Positions 3,431 through 28,823 of a stretch of 64,000 nt of DNA are shown in pieces; position 1 is the stretch's first letter, and the number at the start of each line of letters is the position of its first letter. The position numbers and the translations under genes are program-made. The notes below the pieces were generated by a model that worked only from the letters and a program-made list of their open reading frames with translations, was not told the origin of the DNA and ran no database searches. The DNA comes from a virus. The stretch covers positions 1-64,000 of IMG/VR virus record IMGVR_UViG_3300028837_003734; one strand, given 5' to 3'.

Positions 3431-4867
3431 ATGAATAATAATAAGAAAAAATTCGATATTAGTAGGTATAGTGAGATTAAAGATGTAACCAGTGTAGTAA
3501 AGTTGCCCATGGCGGAGGAGAAAATTAGACTGGGAGAAATAAGGATATCACCTAGAACCGGTGAGGAATATCCAGTTGAGTTAGACTACTTCAAATGTCC
3601 AAAGGAAGTCAGAGAGGTATTCGGGGATGAGCCCACCGAAATTACCGTGTTCTTTCCGATAGCTGATCGAAAAATAGTTTTTCAACAATCTTATGAAAAA
3701 TATGGGAAGAATAAGGCCATGCTATGTTGGGGAGACGGGATTACCGCACAACGGAAAAATCTCGAAGATGGGAGTTGGGAAGATAGAAAATGTCCCTGTG
3801 AATATTTAGGAAAAAGTTGTGACAAAAGGGGGCATCTGCGTTTTATGATGCCTTCAGTCTCCATAGGAAAATTCTATGAATGCCAAGTTGGGGGGACGGT
3901 TTCTTTCCAAGAACTAAATAGTGCTTTTTTTCTCGCTGAAAGAACCACTGGAGGCTACTGGGCTATGGTCCCCTTTAAGATGCGAAGGGTACAAAAAAGA
4001 TTGAAGATACCGGGAACAGCTAAAATGAAAACACATTGGGTGGTAACTTTAGAGCTTATGGCTACTTTAGAAGAAGTCAAGAGGGTTGCTGCCGGGGAAA
4101 TATTATATCTGGGCCAACGTAGAAAATATGAGCTCGAAATCCCCGATCTATCAGAACAAAAAGACGAAAGTAGAAAAGTTTATACCCAGGAGGAGCTGGA
4201 AAAAGAAGAACGAAAAGAAGCAGAGGCAAGGGGGATAACTGTGGAGGAATTAAGAGAATCAAAAGAAATAGAGGAGGCAGCAACAGAACGAACAGAGAGA
4301 GAGAACTCCAAAAAAGATTTTGAGGAATCAAAAGAACGTGAGGCCAAGTTACAGGAGGAGGTGGCTAAAGGTAAGCATAAAGTCAAATCATACCAGGAGA
4401 GTAAGACCATCTTCCAAAATAAAAAAGAAGAGGAGGCTCAAGTTATCGAAGGGGTGCTGAAAAAGGCCTCTGAGGTCGGTCTTAAAAATTGGGGACAGAT
4501 TATAAATTTTACCATAAAGAAGGGGTTACTACAGACTACACTTTCAGAAACCTCGTTCAAGAAGGTCTTGACCACCAATAAGGATATATATAATCGCTTA
4601 ATGAAGGCCCTGGAACCAACAGAGTCTGAGGAAGAGAAAGTGAAGTTAGATAAGATATTTAAGATCTTTAAAAAAGCAGGGATGTCTACCTGGAAAGAGA
4701 TAGCTTGGATTGCCTGTAAAGCGGATTTAAAAGAACCAGGAAGCCCGGTTGAAGAACTGCAACGAACCTTACTCGATAATCCGGAAGCGGTGGAAAAAAT
4801 AATAGAGATGGCAAAAATCGAAGAAAAAGAAGAGCAGGAAATTGCCGACGAGGATATACCGGAGTAA
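3431..4867 (+). CDS. Gp3-like (recombination directionality factor family) protein with long C-terminal extension
   Basis: Residues about 1-235 match the gp3-like family named after the phiC31 directionality factor: EYPVELDYFKCP, FGDEPTEITVFFPIADR, LCWGDGITA and the cysteine set CPCEYLGKSC, followed by a beta-barrel ending near TLELMATLEEVKR. Many members occur in phages without serine integrases, where a general ssDNA-binding or replication role is suspected. The C-terminal ~240 residues are Glu/Lys-rich, with coiled coil and two helical repeats about 90 residues apart (L-K-N-W-G-Q and M-S-T-W-K-E). The start follows TTAAGGAGG. It probably acts in replication or recombination with the SbcCD pair downstream. 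Confidence 0.7.
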   Translation: MNNNKKKFDISRYSEIKDVTSVVKLPMAEEKIRLGEIRISPRTGEEYPVELDYFKCPKEVREVFGDEPTEITVFFPIADRKIVFQQSYEKYGKNKAMLCWGDGITAQRKNLEDGSWEDRKCPCEYLGKSCDKRGHLRFMMPSVSIGKFYECQVGGTVSFQELNSAFFLAERTTGGYWAMVPFKMRRVQKRLKIPGTAKMKTHWVVTLELMATLEEVKRVAAGEILYLGQRRKYELEIPDLSEQKDESRKVYTQEELEKEERKEAEARGITVEELRESKEIEEAATERTERENSKKDFEESKEREAKLQEEVAKGKHKVKSYQESKTIFQNKKEEEAQVIEGVLKKASEVGLKNWGQIINFTIKKGLLQTTLSETSFKKVLTTNKDIYNRLMKALEPTESEEEKVKLDKIFKIFKKAGMSTWKEIAWIACKADLKEPGSPVEELQRTLLDNPEAVEKIIEMAKIEEKEEQEIADEDIPE

Positions 4868-11929: not shown

Positions 11930-12022
11930 ATGATTAAAACAATCCAGATATTTAAGGTAATGTCTGATTTTATAATAAGGATCCTCGATAATTTTGGACG
12001 GGGATGCAAACTGCGGTGGTAG
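11930..12022 (+). CDS. Possible 30-residue peptide
   Basis: A short frame after sbcC begins MIKTIQIFKVMSDF and ends just before the 3D-domain gene. It is amphipathic and helical. A weak GGGCTGATGA lies upstream. It could be a leader peptide or chance; there is no paralogue or overlap to support it. Confidence 0.3.
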   Translation: MIKTIQIFKVMSDFIIRILDNFGRGCKLRW

Positions 12023-12027
12023 CAATG

Positions 12028-12711
12028 AATAGATTGATTTATATAGTGCTTATAGGCATGCTACTATCAATAACCTATGCTATTTATACCCTGCCAATCC
12101 CGATAGAAGCCGAAGAGTCAAAATACTTTATTATGACTTCGACGGCTTATAGTAATCACCAAAATTGTATTGCTGATAAATGGCGGGATGGCAAAACTGC
12201 AACTGGGACCCCTATAAGGGAAGGTATTGTAGCTATTAATGTGGATCTGATTGATGGTAAATGGGTAGTTAAAAGTCCTCTCAAACTTGGTCAAAAGATA
12301 TATATTGAAGGAATGGGATATTTTAGTGTAGAAGACACGGGGCCATTTACTGAGAAAGATTTTCATTTCGATATCTGGAATCTTGATGTCTATAAAGAAA
12401 ATTATGAACAGGCCAAAGAATGGGGAATTAAAAGAATCAAAGTTTATGTATTAGGGGGGATTAAAAGAATGAGAAGAGATGAAACAGTACGGGAAAGATA
12501 TAAAAGATGGTGGGAAGGGAAATATTGTAAGTTGGCAAAACAAGACAGGAAATTCAAATACGTACAAACGGCAGAGTTCATTGGTCCTCCAAGCGGTGTT
12601 TATGGCACTGTAATTCTTCATTATTTAGATGGTACTTTTGAACACGTTATTCCATTTAACCCGAATGCATTCAAGCCAAGAAAAATGGATGTTGAGGTGG
12701 AGGATGAATAA
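12028..12711 (+). CDS. Exported 3D-domain (wall hydrolase-like) protein fused to an RYKRWW-type domain
   Basis: ATG 12028 gives 227 residues, starting with a signal anchor MNRLIYIVLIGMLLSI. Residues about 33-145 match the 3D domain (double-psi barrel of MltA/Sps-type transglycosylases): TSTAYS, D-G-K-TATGTPIREG-IVAIN, EDTGP and FDIW supply the conserved aspartates. It likely acts on peptidoglycan during entry or lysis. Residues about 148-227 are a paralogue of the protein at 6138. An internal AGGGGGGA (12453-12460) sits 8 nt before an in-frame ATG at 12469, so the second part may also be made alone. The fusion looks like loss of a stop codon. Confidence 0.75.
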   Translation, partial: NRLIYIVLIGMLLSITYAIYTLPIPIEAEESKYFIMTSTAYSNHQNCIADKWRDGKTATGTPIREGIVAINVDLIDGKWVVKSPLKLGQKIYIEGMGYFSVEDTGPFTEKDFHFDIWNLDVYKENYEQAKEWGIKRIKVYVLGGIKRMRRDETVRERYKRWWEGKYCKLAKQDRKFKYVQTAEFIGPPSGVYGTVILHYLDGTFEHVIPFNPNAFKPRKMDVEVEDE

Positions 12712-18429: not shown

Positions 18430-18612
18430 ATGATGTTTCCTACCATAAAGACTTATTATGAGCAGATAAAAAGAAACAGTGAATTCAATGATTTTTCGAA
18501 GAGACTTAAAAAAAATATTGAGAAATTAGTGGTGAAGGATAAGAAATATTCCTGGGAAGATGAAGCTGACGTAAATTTTAGAAAGGCTGCGGTGGAAGAA
18601 AATGAAAAATAA
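18430..18612 (+). CDS. Small helical protein
   Basis: The 60-residue charged helical protein has a GGAGGC ribosome site 6 nt upstream. It overlaps the start of the radical-SAM-like gene by 11 nt. No motif is seen; the strong ribosome site and tight packing support it as real. Confidence 0.6.
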   Translation: MMFPTIKTYYEQIKRNSEFNDFSKRLKKNIEKLVVKDKKYSWEDEADVNFRKAAVEENEK

Positions 18613-19330
18613 AATCGGGTGGTGTTCGATGACGTGGAATCCGTGCTGGGGCTGCAGGAACAACTGTAGCTATTGTTACGCCAGGGCAATAGCAAAGAGG
18701 TTTTGGAAACAGAGATATAGTGATGAGTTTAATTTTTATTATATGGCACATCCTAATTGGGTTTGGACAGGAGGTTACTTATCGGGTTTAAAGAATTTTA
18801 AACCTACATTTTTATATTCTCAATATGCTAAAAAATTTCCCCAAAAGACCCAAAAGATATTCGTGGGATCAATGAGCGAAATAGCTCATTGGAAAGATGA
18901 GTGGTTAGAAAAAGTGTTGGAAAAAGTAAAACAATATCCCCAACATATCTTCCAATTTCTGACAAGATATCCGGAGGTTTATGATAGATATATTTTCCCG
19001 AGAAACTGCTGGCTGGGAGTAACCATAACAAGAGAAAAAGATTTTGAGAGAGGGATCCCTTATCTATTTATTACGAGCTGCAATATAACCTTTGTGTCAA
19101 TCGAACCTATACTCGAATATATTAACCCCGGACCTTTTTTAAATGCAAATATTGATTGGGTGATCCTGGGAGCAGAGACCGGGAAGAGGAAGGGGAAGGT
19201 CATACCAAAAAGAGATTGGGTAGAGAATATAGTAAATTATTGTAAATGGAATAATATCTCGGTCTACTTGAAAGATAGTCTGAAAGAAATCTATCCGGAA
19301 AAGATAAAAATGTTTCCTAAAATTAATTAA
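18602..19330 (+). CDS. Phage Gp37/Gp68 family (DUF5131) radical-SAM-like protein
   Basis: The 242-residue protein opens with IGWCSMTWNPCWGCRNNCSYCYARA. The CxxxCxxC arrangement holds the 4Fe-4S cluster typical of the Gp37/Gp68 (DUF5131) family, and later blocks IFVGSMSE, FQFLTRYPE, WLGVTI and WVILGAETG also match. Members are common in phages; the substrate is unknown, with DNA or tRNA base modification suspected from related radical SAM enzymes. It overlaps the preceding small gene. Confidence 0.9.
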   Translation: MKNKIGWCSMTWNPCWGCRNNCSYCYARAIAKRFWKQRYSDEFNFYYMAHPNWVWTGGYLSGLKNFKPTFLYSQYAKKFPQKTQKIFVGSMSEIAHWKDEWLEKVLEKVKQYPQHIFQFLTRYPEVYDRYIFPRNCWLGVTITREKDFERGIPYLFITSCNITFVSIEPILEYINPGPFLNANIDWVILGAETGKRKGKVIPKRDWVENIVNYCKWNNISVYLKDSLKEIYPEKIKMFPKIN

Positions 19331-19348
19331 GAAAGGAGGAAAGAAGAG

Positions 19349-19645
19349 ATGACAGGAGAATTAAGCAGTGGAGAAAGTAAGAAACCAGCGACTACTGGGG
19401 ATATATCAAAAGTCGTTTTTTCCGTATTAGATCGGGCTAAAGAACTGAATATAATTATATCTGAAGTAAATAGCGAGCTAGTTGGTTCCCCGATGGAAGT
19501 GCAAGAGGAAAAGGATCTTGCCAAGAAGGCTTCCGAAGGATGGATTGAAAATGAATATAAAAGACTCTGCGAAATTAGAGAACAAATGAATAGAGTATCA
19601 GAGAGAATGCAGTTATTAAAAAGCCGGCTAAAGACGGAGAAATAA
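19349..19645 (+). CDS. Small coiled-coil protein
   Basis: The 98-residue protein has an AAGGAGG ribosome site. A flexible N-terminus is followed by two helices with heptad character (VLDRAKELNIIISEVNSEL; EIREQMNRVSERMQLL). The pattern recurs in small phage structural or replication accessories. No family is assigned. Confidence 0.65.
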   Translation: MTGELSSGESKKPATTGDISKVVFSVLDRAKELNIIISEVNSELVGSPMEVQEEKDLAKKASEGWIENEYKRLCEIREQMNRVSERMQLLKSRLKTEK

Positions 19646-19660
19646 GAGAGGTGAACAAAG

Positions 19661-19732
19661 ATGTGGTATTGGTTCATAGGAATTGTAGTAGTGGTGGCAA
19701 TAGTAACATATTTAATATTAAAAAGAAGATAG
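19661..19732 (+). CDS. Tiny membrane peptide
   Basis: The 23-residue frame behind an AGAGGTG site is a single hydrophobic helix (WYWFIGIVVVVAIVTYLIL) ending in KRR. Its composition and ribosome site support expression. It is the last gene before the structured RNA array. Confidence 0.5.
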   Translation: MWYWFIGIVVVVAIVTYLILKRR

Positions 19733-19742
19733 AAATGAGAAT

Positions 19743-20585
19743 GGGGCGGAGTACTATTGGTATGTTATGTCTAAAGAGCTAATAGAAGAGGCATGTCTCT
19801 GTCCTAGTGGACCGGAAAGCTATAATAAAATTGCTTAAATTGCTACAATAAAGATGCTTCCGGTAGAGGATCGTGAGGCAGAATGCTAAAGGAATGGTGA
19901 TATAAAAAAGCTTGTAATATATCTGCTTTTGCCTCCCAAAAAAAAGAAAATTGAGAGATAGAACGCTAATAGGGAACTGTAGACTGGAGAATTGCTACTA
20001 AATATATGCTTCTATTATTAGATGACAGAAAGATCAAAGAGATGGGCAGAGAGCTAGGATGGTATTGATTTATTTAGTTGGCGAATGCCTCTGTCCGTCT
20101 CTAAGGATGGGGAGGCGGAGTACTGAAAAACATTTTATTCCGAAGATAGATAAAAGCCTTATGTCTCTGCCTAAATCTCCTCGGAAAGCTAAAAGGAAGA
20201 TGCTTAACATGCTATTAGCGAGGTTACTTCCGAGAAGAAGATACTGTGGGCAGAATGCTACTAATTCGATATCGATAGACTAAAGAATGTTTGCTTCTGC
20301 CTTAATAAAAGCTGGGACAGGCAAAGAGCTAAAATTATAATGACTTATTCGTTTAGGCCAAAATTGCCTTTTGTCTATCTTAGATATTAGAAAAAAAGGG
20401 AAGGAGAACTATTATAGCATTATATTCGAAGGGATTACTAATAGAAATATGTCTCTGACTGACAAAACGGAAAGTTAAAGCGATAATGTTTAATGTGCTG
20501 ATCAAGAATTGCTTCCGAATAAAATACTGCAGACAGAATGCTAGCGTAAGAATACGAAAAAGCTATTTATAGATTGCTTCTGCCT
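19743..20585 (+). ncRNA. RNA array A, left part: about 12 related hairpins
   Basis: No supported gene lies in 19733-20611. Hairpins are at 19743-19805, 19811-19864, 19875-19935, 19957-20016, 20038-20102 (14-bp stem), 20113-20172, 20180-20234, 20248-20302, 20315-20376, 20403-20456 (weak), 20468-20517 and 20531-20585. Stems differ in sequence but pair. Each is followed on the 5' side by one unpaired base and GC, AC or GT plus TA, and preceded on the 3' side by T plus GC or GT. That gives two further covarying pairs (G-C/C-G, A-U/C-G, G-C/U-G) and a variable TA...T loop. A three-hairpin superunit of about 190 nt recurs three times. A Cys-poor frame at 20059-20283 inside the array is rejected as coding. 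Confidence 0.85.
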
Positions 20586-20611
20586 CGCTAAAGAAAGAAA
20601 GGTGATTTAAA

Positions 20612-21544
20612 ATGTATTTTGTTAAATGGTCCATTAAAAAGGAATTAAAGGTCTTTGATCTCGCGAATGAGAAATCCAAAACCATGGCCCCGAGCGTCGG
20701 AGAATTCTCCAAATTTCTGGATAAGATTGAAAAGGAAAATTCCTTCTATTTCGAGGAAGGTGGCGGAGACTCCTTTAAACTCTTAGCTAGGAGAAGGGGC
20801 CATCAGGTATTTACACTGCCGGGAATCAGAACTAAGGAGTGCCGGGAGAACCTGAAGCTACCAAAAACAGACAAGAACGACGCTTTTGCCGTAAAACATT
20901 TAATTAAGGAGCACCCTGAAGATTTTTATGAATTCAAAGAGCTAGACGAAATGACTGCCCGGATCAGCATAATATTCAAAGAGCGTGCTGATACTGAAAA
21001 GATTATGGTGGCGACTAAATTAAGGCTGTTCGCTCTAAAGAATAGATTAGAATTGGTGAATCTGAACGGATACGAGAAAGAGGCGGTGGAGAAAAAGGAG
21101 GCAGTTATCCAGGCCCTAGAAGAAGATTTCGAACTTCAAACTAAACTATTACAAGCAGAAGTAAGGAAACATCCTGTCTGGAAGGATTATCTAAAGGGGA
21201 TAAAGGGAGTCGGACCTGCAGTAGCCGGTGGCCTGATAACCGGTATTAAAAGGGCTTCCCGGTTTAGCGATAAGTATGCCCTGAGACATTATGCCGGAAT
21301 GGTAGCCAAGAAGGGGAATCAGAGATTTAACCACCAATTGAAGAGGGCATTATTTCATTTTGCCGAACAGGTTATACGACAGAATACTCCGATCTGGCGA
21401 AAGCTATATGATGATATGAAGATTTTTTATGGCAATAAACACCCGGATTGGAGTAAAGGCAAGATAAATAATTACAGCAAAAAGTTTATAGAAACACGAT
21501 TCTTGAATGAATTATTCGAAGAGATAAAGATGGTGGAGAGATGA
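20612..21544 (+). CDS. IS110-family DEDD transposase-like protein with altered catalytic residues
   Basis: The 310-residue protein has the IS110 layout: an N-terminal RuvC-like DEDD domain (PF01548 type), a coiled coil (about 110-185) and a C-terminal Transposase_20 domain starting IKGVGPAVAGG (about 196) and FSDKYALRHYAGM (about 217-230). KTDKNDA (D87, D90) and the glutamate region FYFEEGGGD (E48/E49) are present. In the first strand, where active members have G-I-D-W-S, this protein has F-V-K5-W-S, so the first aspartate is Lys. The segment with the catalytic Ser-Gly is also absent: AGM is followed by VAKKGNQRF. DNA cleavage is therefore doubtful while RNA and DNA binding may remain. It starts behind AAAGGTGA. 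Structured RNAs flank it on both sides and its stop codon lies in the first downstream hairpin. Confidence 0.85.
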   Translation: MYFVKWSIKKELKVFDLANEKSKTMAPSVGEFSKFLDKIEKENSFYFEEGGGDSFKLLARRRGHQVFTLPGIRTKECRENLKLPKTDKNDAFAVKHLIKEHPEDFYEFKELDEMTARISIIFKERADTEKIMVATKLRLFALKNRLELVNLNGYEKEAVEKKEAVIQALEEDFELQTKLLQAEVRKHPVWKDYLKGIKGVGPAVAGGLITGIKRASRFSDKYALRHYAGMVAKKGNQRFNHQLKRALFHFAEQVIRQNTPIWRKLYDDMKIFYGNKHPDWSKGKINNYSKKFIETRFLNELFEEIKMVER

Positions 21545-21973
21545 TGCTAAAAGCAATGTGCCCTTAGGCTAGAGTATGATTGCTCATCTCCGATAAAAAA
21601 ATGGAAAGTTGAAAATGTTAGGATGTAAATGTGAATTAGCATATCATTAATAACTTGTTGCTTTTTGACTTTCTAACTGAGGGGCCGGGTTATAAGGAAT
21701 GTTAGATATTGCATGTAATAAAATATTTACTGCTGGTCTTGTGCCTCCTCATAATCCAGTCTGAGCTACTGTAACGGAATAATATAGGGAAGGGATAAGG
21801 AAATGAAAATGGTGGAGAGAGGCTGACAATGAGAGGCTGACAATGACGAACTGAGCTGTTGAGATGACGTTATTTTTAATCTGCTCTAAACAGAATGATA
21901 TAGGAAAAAAAAGAATAGAGAGATAATGCTACAGATGAAGTGCTTTTAAGCTAATTAGAATATGCTTATTTCT
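21538..21973 (+). ncRNA. RNA array A, right part: four to five hairpins
   Basis: Hairpins of the same class lie at 21538-21590 (GAGATGA/TCATCTC, overlapping the recombinase stop codon), 21604-21673 (12-bp stem), 21678-21751 and 21919-21973 (8-bp stem). A weak one lies near 21850-21890. All four clear members keep the 1-nt bulge, GC or GT plus TA on the 5' side and TGC on the 3' side. A 14-bp tandem repeat (GAGAGGCTGACAAT, 21817-21844) lies between them. No gene is seen in 21545-21992. Confidence 0.8.
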
Positions 21974-21992
21974 AAGAAAAGGAGGAATAAAT

Positions 21993-22277
21993 ATGTTAAC
22001 CATCTATAAATATCCGATCCCTGTAGAAGACCATTTCACTTTAGAATTGCCTAAGGATGCTAAAATACTGACGGTCCAAACTCAAAGAGGCGCTCCTTAT
22101 TTATGGGCAATGGTAGATTCAGAAACAGAAAAGGAAACTAGGTATTTTAGGCTAAGTGGGACCGGTCATCCTTTGGGTGAAGATTACCTCAGAATAATTA
22201 ATTATATAGGAACTTTTCAAATAGAAAATGGGGCATTAGTATTTCATTTGTTCGAGATTAAGAAAGGAGAATTTTAA
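21993..22277 (+). CDS. DUF7352-type small phage protein
   Basis: The 94-residue protein contains IYKYPIPVEDHFTLELPKDAKIL, VQTQRGAPYLWAMVD, FRLSGTGHPL and YIGTFQIENGALVFHLFE, the complete pattern of a widespread small beta-rich phage/plasmid family. Function is unknown. An AAAGGAGG site fixes the start right after the RNA array. It is followed 2 nt later by the ClpP-like gene. Confidence 0.8.
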   Translation: MLTIYKYPIPVEDHFTLELPKDAKILTVQTQRGAPYLWAMVDSETEKETRYFRLSGTGHPLGEDYLRIINYIGTFQIENGALVFHLFEIKKGEF

Positions 22278-26069: not shown

Positions 26070-26136
26070 TGCACATATTTGTGATGGCATTCGAAAGAAA
26101 AGGAAAAAATAAAATTGATGAAAATTAAATAACAAT

Positions 26137-27025
26137 ATAATGCTCCTGCAAGAGCATTAGAATGTTATTAAAAATTGATGAAAAATAAAGATATGCCTAA
26201 AAATGAAGTTCTGTAATGCTTATTATGTAAGGCTTTCGGAGTGCAAAAAACAAAATTAATTGTACCTCTAGAAAAAAGACTAAAAATATTGAAACGAAAC
26301 GCTAAAAAAGTATAAAAAAAGAGAAGTACAATTTGGGTTTGTAAGGGGTCAAACGCAGTGCTCAAAAATATCTTATTTTATTTTTAAGGAAAAAAACAGC
26401 ATTAAAAATGACCTCTGCAAAACTCTAATCTACACCTTAAAAAAAAAAAAAACGAAATTCGGAAAATCACAAAAAAATGAGCATTAGAATCGAGTCTTGC
26501 AAAAACAAGATCTAATGCTCCAAAATCTCTTAAAAATATTTTAAGGAAAATCTGAGCATTAGAAATGAGTCTTGCAGAACCGAAATGTAGTGCTCTAAAA
26601 ATGCTAAAAATAAAAATAGGGATTTTTCGAGAGATAGAAATAGCCACCTGCAAAACCGAATTCTAGATCTCTTTTTTTTCCCGGAAACTAAATTTAAAAA
26701 TTCTGAAAACGAAAGACGTTTTTTAACCTCTTGCAGGAGCATTAGAAAGACGATAGAAAAAGCACGAAAAATAAAATAAGGGAATTTCTGCGGGTGCTGA
26801 AACGCTTATAAATAAAGAGTTACAAGACACTAAAAAAGGTTTTAATTGTACTTCTCTAAAACTACGCCAAAAATAAAATAACTAACGGTAAAAATGAAGG
26901 TAAAAAAGAGATGTAGGTTTTGGGTCTGCAAGGGGTCAAATGCAATGCTCGAAAAAACCTTAAAATATTTTTAAGGAAAAAAAGAGAAGTAGTTTTACTG
27001 TTTGCGAATGACAGAATGTTGCTGC
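26137..27025 (+). ncRNA. RNA array B: about ten hairpin units
   Basis: The gap 26070-27072 holds no supported gene. Hairpin units about 40 nt long, usually 75-85 nt apart, share a central YTGCAA-like motif near 26146, 26340, 26415, 26498, 26572, 26648, 26731, 26788, 26928 and 27002. The clearest are 26479-26520 (10-bp GAGCATTAGA/TCTAATGCTC with an inner CTTG/CAAG), 26554-26595 (8 bp with a G-U change) and 26630-26672 (AGAGAT/ATCTCT, followed by eight Ts). Linkers repeatedly contain a CTTAAAA..TTTTAAG palindrome. Segments 26319-26400 and 26906-26990 are close copies. No known RNA family is recognised. Confidence 0.7.
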
Positions 27026-27072
27026 CCAAAATATTGTAAAAATAAAATAAGAAAATTTGGGAGAAAAAGTAT

Positions 27073-28647: not shown

Positions 28648-28823
28648 AGGCATAGGTAGTTCCTAAAAAATACATTGGCGTAAATTACTACCCGCCTTTA
28701 AAATCATAAGGCATAAGTGGTTCCTATAAACAATTCTGAACAATTGAAATTACCACTCGCCTTAATTAAAAAACATAGGGCATAGGCAGTTCCTATAATT
28801 CAGGTTTGATTTACTGCCCGCCC
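28648..28823 (+). ncRNA. RNA array C: three tandem hairpins with compensatory changes
   Basis: Units lie at 28648-28697, 28708-28763 and 28778-28823. Each has an outer helix (AGGC/GCCT, AAGGC/GCCTT, GGGC/GCCC), an identical asymmetric internal loop (ATA opposite C) and an inner 6-bp helix (GGTAGT/ACTACC, AGTGGT/ACCACT, GGCAGT/ACTGCC). A loop starting TCCTA follows. Several pairs change on both strands between units, which is direct evidence for RNA pairing. The third unit ends 5 nt before the AAGGAGG of the next gene. No known family is recognised. Nothing else is seen in 28629-28839. Confidence 0.88.

Follow-up and report, generated by a model that had tools for sequence, protein, structure and literature searches.

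A probable phage TIGR-Tas locus with a stem-loop array, in which hairpin superunits appear to record block duplication

Repeated hairpins in phage DNA may form one composite RNA or many separate ones, and the viral record IMGVR_UViG_3300028837_003734 (76,069 bases, with genes that include a terminase, a portal and a methyltransferase) raises this question in its first 64,000 nucleotides, the stretch analysed here as the window. A sequence-only reading had noticed that three kinds of hairpin recur three times in the same order (19743-19935, 20113-20302 and 20403-20585) and had proposed that each superunit of about 190 nt is one functional RNA resembling an IS110 bridge RNA, with its hairpins as separate guide loops. 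The repeated order is present at these positions, and we consider it likely that this tailed phage carries a TIGR-Tas system with a stem-loop array, the superunits being traces of duplication. The terminase of this phage is only distantly similar to those of known phages, with a best match of 34% to a Methanosarcinales-associated virus.

Twelve hairpins, whose borders were set by hand, occupy 19743-20584 and approximately four more of the same anatomy lie at 21538-21972, with a gene for a 310-aa protein (20612-21544) in between (Table 1). The region has an excess of stems, with 9 hairpins and a score of 194 versus 5.6 hairpins and 103 ± 18 in dinucleotide-shuffled copies, while an Rfam search at gathering and relaxed thresholds gave no match and no promoter or terminator was found above chance.

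Table 1. Positions of the array hairpins, the tas gene and the variable cassette in the window
Feature	Position	Strand	Remark
TIGR/tas cassette, differs among relatives	19733..21992	+	missing between same flanking genes in L012, L010; tas missing there in L062/L063, L064
U1 hairpin, class A, superunit 1	19743..19806	+	box spacing less regular in class A (11-12 nt)
U2 hairpin, class B	19812..19863	+	spacers TAATAAAAT / CAATAAAGA; L003 identical in both
U3 hairpin, class C	19877..19933	+	spacers AAGGAATGG / TAATATATC; L003 differs in both
U4 hairpin, own class	19958..20015	+	spacers ATAGGGAAC / CTAAATATA; same in L003 despite altered loop
U5 hairpin, class E	20038..20102	+	spacers GGATGGTAT / GTTGGCGAA
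U6 hairpin, class A, superunit 2	20113..20172	+	
U7 hairpin, class B	20178..20236	+	
U8 hairpin, class C	20248..20301	+	L003 stem of other sequence, pairing retained
U9 hairpin, class E	20316..20375	+	spacers AAATTATAA / GGCCAAAAT; 8/9 and 9/9 in L003
U10 hairpin, class A, superunit 3	20403..20460	+	
U11 hairpin, class B	20467..20517	+	
U12 hairpin, class C	20532..20584	+	L003 differs in both spacers
tas gene, 310 aa	20612..21544	+	Tas Nop/RNA-binding domain; RuvC-like N-terminus without first Asp
U13 hairpin, overlaps tas stop codon	21538..21590	+	TGA in window, TAA in L003; other arm compensates
U14 hairpin	21603..21673	+	9/9 spacers
U15 hairpin	21688..21757	+	9/9 spacers, weaker fit
U16 hairpin, class shared with U13	21920..21972	+	

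Thirteen of the approximately 16 window hairpins, together with 10 hairpins of the related contig L003, share one layout, in which a stem, usually with a one-base bulge, leads through G, box C, the 9-nt spacer A and box D into the loop, and the loop leads through a second box C, the 9-nt spacer B, box D and C into the other stem arm. Box C is mostly CUA, box D mostly UG, and the first and last loop bases pair. Of 34 CTAs, 15 are part of a CTA-N9-TG pattern versus a background of about 5% (P ~ 8e-11), and the distance from CTA to TG peaks sharply at nine (15 cases, against 0-3 for other spacings) on the plus strand only, no such 9-nt peak being found on the minus strand. The boxes of these 23 units were picked by eye, but their 9-nt spacing agrees with the published one, and the pair that closes the loop played no part in the picking. 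This pair is present in 22 units versus 12.5 ± 1.8 after shuffling, the edge pair beside the boxes is present in all 23, and edge-stem pairs number 127 versus 101 ± 3.3. The C/D boxes are alike at the edge and at the loop, each with an adjoining closing pair. In U7 and the class A units the spacers are longer or uneven and do not keep the exact 9 nt. The stem of U8 is wholly different in sequence in L003 yet pairs, and in U13 of L003 the tas stop codon is TAA instead of TGA and the opposite arm has TTA in place of TCA; RNA structure is thus supported by the changes themselves. In the stem-loop TIGR array described earlier, every processed RNA consists of one stem-loop (PMC12045711), and it is very probable that the hairpin is also the guide unit here.

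The protein encoded between the two groups of hairpins matched the NCBIfam model TIGR_Tas_endo (NF052498; 9e-22, 78 bits, below the NCBIfam cut-off of 100 bits) and the cryo-EM protein TasR (PDB 9mty; 3.3e-13 over residues 80-272), and a TIGR-Tas identity is very likely in our judgement. Alignment to four IS110 transposases revealed that a Glu is retained along with both Asp of the K-T-D-x-N-D-A motif, so that of the four acidic RuvC residues of an active TasR nuclease E48/E49, D87 and D90 are present and the first Asp is absent, and that the IS110 Ser-Gly motif is absent from Tas. The protein starts with MYFVKW[SA]I in the two relatives, without an Asp at the G-[IV]-D position of the IS110 proteins; the MAFFT alignment is gapped at the extreme N-terminus, and either Trp6 or Ser7 is taken as the equivalent of the first Asp. 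As mutation of that residue in TaTasR (D11A) abolishes cutting (PMC12045711), its absence predicts a non-cutting Tas. The L003 Tas is 90% identical, with 32% difference at fourfold sites, and dN of 0.06 against dS of 0.36-0.65 indicates purifying selection on tas. AlphaFold predictions built on 2-3 sequences were too poor to use (pLDDT 39) and did not confirm the fold. No relatives of Tas were found in phage, plasmid and genome collections, a single genome motif match being rejected as a sigma-like factor. In a separate observation, L007 carries a distant Tas gene at 3577-4680 on the minus strand, whose predicted N-terminus is a translated upstream dual-repeat array (repeats ending GAGCCA / AGAAACCCA), and this viral contig apparently harbours a canonical TIGR-TasA locus of the dual-repeat kind.

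Unit-by-unit alignment bears out the hairpin classes behind the repeated order. U1, U6 and U10 form the ACTA/ATGT type, class A (Z 5.0-7.9), U2, U7 and U11 the CGGAA class B (Z 6.3-6.8), and U3, U8 and U12 the CAGAA class C (Z 5.6-10.5), and three such triples arise by chance with P = 7e-5 when the order of the 12 units is shuffled. The loop interiors had been called unrelated, which holds, as spacers of the same class match at 0-4 of 9 positions versus 3.0/9 for any unrelated spacers; paralogous hairpins have common stems (75-100%) and unrelated spacers. Pairwise comparison places U13 and U16 in a further class, and U5 and U9 form a class E (Z 8.0), missed by the sequence-only reading, directly before superunits 2 and 3. 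As U5-8 of one phage also align with U9-12 of the other over approximately 284 columns (63-64%), the repeat is a four-hairpin block, E-A-B-C. Most likely the array grew by duplication of this block, leaving the three superunits as traces, after which each hairpin would have kept its stem class and had both of its spacers altered. The superunit would then exist as a record of duplication and probably not as an RNA of its own, and its bridge-RNA-like size most likely arose by coincidence from block duplication. We suggest, very tentatively, that TIGR stem-loop arrays might renew their guides by a dedicated route of block duplication followed by paired rewriting of spacers, with the stem, boxes and much of the loop untouched, unlike CRISPR, in which guides are added by insertion at the leader end.

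The array of L003, which keeps the hairpin order of the window, reveals how the spacers change. Those of U2, U4, U9 and U13 are kept at 70/72 positions (97%), those of U3, U5 and U12 at 20/54, near the unrelated level of 3/9, and U8, U10 and U11 are intermediate; the variation among hairpins exceeds binomial expectation (dispersion P 6e-9). The linkers are 75% identical, with the kept spacers higher (P 1.3e-5) and the changed spacers lower even with gaps permitted (27/49, P 0.018). The two spacers of one hairpin are kept or changed jointly (r = 0.93), and in U4 both are identical on either side of an altered loop, a pattern that one would expect if each hairpin were one two-part guide. Within superunit 1, U2 kept both spacers (9/9 and 9/9) and its neighbour U3 neither (3/9 and 3/9), which speaks against a function of the superunit as a whole and, with the paired turnover, for the hairpin as the guide. 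A single hairpin carries both half-guides with their boxes C and D, and the proposal that a superunit is one functional RNA is probably wrong, its hairpins turning over independently. A related possibility is that three or four adjacent hairpins stay joined as a multi-guide RNA, for example with guides for neighbouring sites on one transcript, as the A-B-C order is retained in both relatives and occurs three times in the array. We regard this as improbable, since block duplication predicts the order equally well, spacers inside a superunit change separately, the C-class stem of superunit 2 has been replaced in L003, and the published stem array gives single hairpins (PMC12045711).

In the published geometry, spacer A pairs with one target strand and spacer B with the other, with a gap of 0-2 bp (PMC12045711); the target orientation used here, A followed by the reverse complement of B, was deduced from the 8-nt 3' overhangs and the C-5 rule. 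Searches of the phage itself and its relatives in four layouts gave no target above a null of spacers paired across different hairpins. Exact scans of viral contigs gave 3 matches for U4, 10 for U13 and 8 for U9, which we judge to be chance-like: those of U13 and U9 are scattered over gap sizes, and those of U4 fall at two distinct sites in unrelated coding regions. A 17/18 match of the U3 spacer pair at window position 12308, inside the phage's own ORF 12004-12711, was not significant against the null. The missing targets, the many differing spacers and the absence of the first RuvC Asp in both relatives would also fit a decayed locus in which protein and array are functionless remnants. Such decay is unlikely, however, given purifying selection on tas, the constraint on spacers and the compensatory stem changes, including the one at the tas stop codon.

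The remaining alternatives are scarcely credible. An IS110-type transposon, in which each superunit would serve as a single bridge RNA whose loops specify target and donor, draws on the common RuvC/Nop ancestry of the two protein families (Pfam Transposase_20, 4e-7; NCBIfam IS110, 47 bits against a cut-off of 140) and on the superunit length of about 190 nt. This reading is already largely refuted, as the protein has neither the first RuvC Asp nor the catalytic serine motif, the Tas model outscores the IS110 model (78 versus 47 bits), the hairpins of one superunit turn over separately, and the guide anatomy is unlike that of IS110, with approximately 16 separate dual-spacer hairpins flanking the gene on either side versus a single two-loop RNA beside it. 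What stands of the earlier guide-loop proposal is that an IS110-related (Nop-domain) protein very probably uses the hairpins as guide RNAs, with the guides in their loop interiors; the unit and the system were misassigned. Intergenic hairpins are common in phages, and these could act in a phage transcript as attenuators or as sites of RNA processing instead of guides, a reading opposed by the fixed 9-nt box spacing, found twice per hairpin and on one strand only, and by the position of the Tas gene between the arrays.

Among the closest known systems is a stem-loop array on a Peromyscus leucopus gut contig, where 13 hairpins in subarrays lie beside a nuclease-less Tas gene (TIGR-TasA; Faure et al. 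2025, PMC12045711). Both have a hairpin array by a Tas gene, and in both each hairpin holds two short spacers flanked by box C and box D, whereas the phage protein keeps a RuvC-like N-terminus and its locus has CUA/UG boxes, 9-nt spacers and a four-hairpin block duplication. The inactive-RuvC TasR clade of CPR bacteria (PMC12045711), compared by its description, likewise combines such a Tas with a stem-loop array, but the present protein is in a phage genome and has 310 aa with no obvious large Nop insertions. TaTasR (PDB 9mty) shares a homologous Nop/RNA-binding region, the DxxD motif, 9-nt spacers and the UG box D, and differs in its active nuclease, its box C of CCA and a dual-repeat array built of edge and loop repeats instead of stems. 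We regard the locus as a further instance of an already described kind of system, resolved in unusual detail, with a TasR-like protein that is probably nuclease-dead.

The array hairpins, their boxes and spacing, the homology and the turnover are supported by sequence, and their function can be proposed by analogy to characterised systems. The array transcript would be cut into single hairpins, and a Tas dimer would bind one hairpin, with one C/D pair per protomer. Because the first catalytic Asp is missing from the RuvC-like domain, the complex would probably leave the DNA that it binds and bends uncut, and we lean towards such non-cutting binding. The most likely function would then be RNA-guided binding of DNA, without cleavage, by a phage cassette absent from some relatives; it might, for example, act as a roadblock or silencer of a host gene or a competing element. 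Array origin, expansion and natural targets are listed as open by the discoverers of TIGR-Tas (PMC12045711). The two phages with 90%-identical Tas and their cassette-free relatives show an array changing hairpin by hairpin, with a four-hairpin block duplication, some guides strictly kept and others wholly changed as pairs, so that array evolution and the role of a nuclease-dead phage Tas become testable.

Comparison of relatives revealed that the cassette is variable. In L012 and L010, an upstream small gene or other phage genes lead directly to the gene at 21993, with tas and the array absent, and L062/L063 and L064 have no tas between the same two flanking genes. The cassette-free relatives are from the same two metagenomes as the two phages with the cassette (3300008517, 3300024262); L012 shares a sample with the identical contig L002 and L064 with L003, so relatives with and without the cassette co-occur in samples. 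The interval between the DUF5131 and DUF7352 genes (window 18602-21992; L010, L012, L062, L064) is a variable-gene hotspot in related phages.

Two other structured repeats were observed in the window. At 28648-28822, upstream of a gene for a 664-aa protein without a Pfam or PHROG match, lie three tandem hairpins of the form GGCATA-stem-TTCCTA...stem-C-GCC, with covarying stems (GGTAGT/ACTACC, AGTGGT/ACCACT and GGCAGT/ACTGCC) and no match in Rfam; L012 also has three copies, with differing loops. At 26129-27070, non-coding diverged repeats and hairpins, such as GAGCATTAGA...TCTAATGCTC with TTGCA loops, precede a radical-SAM gene, and similar sequence is present in L003.
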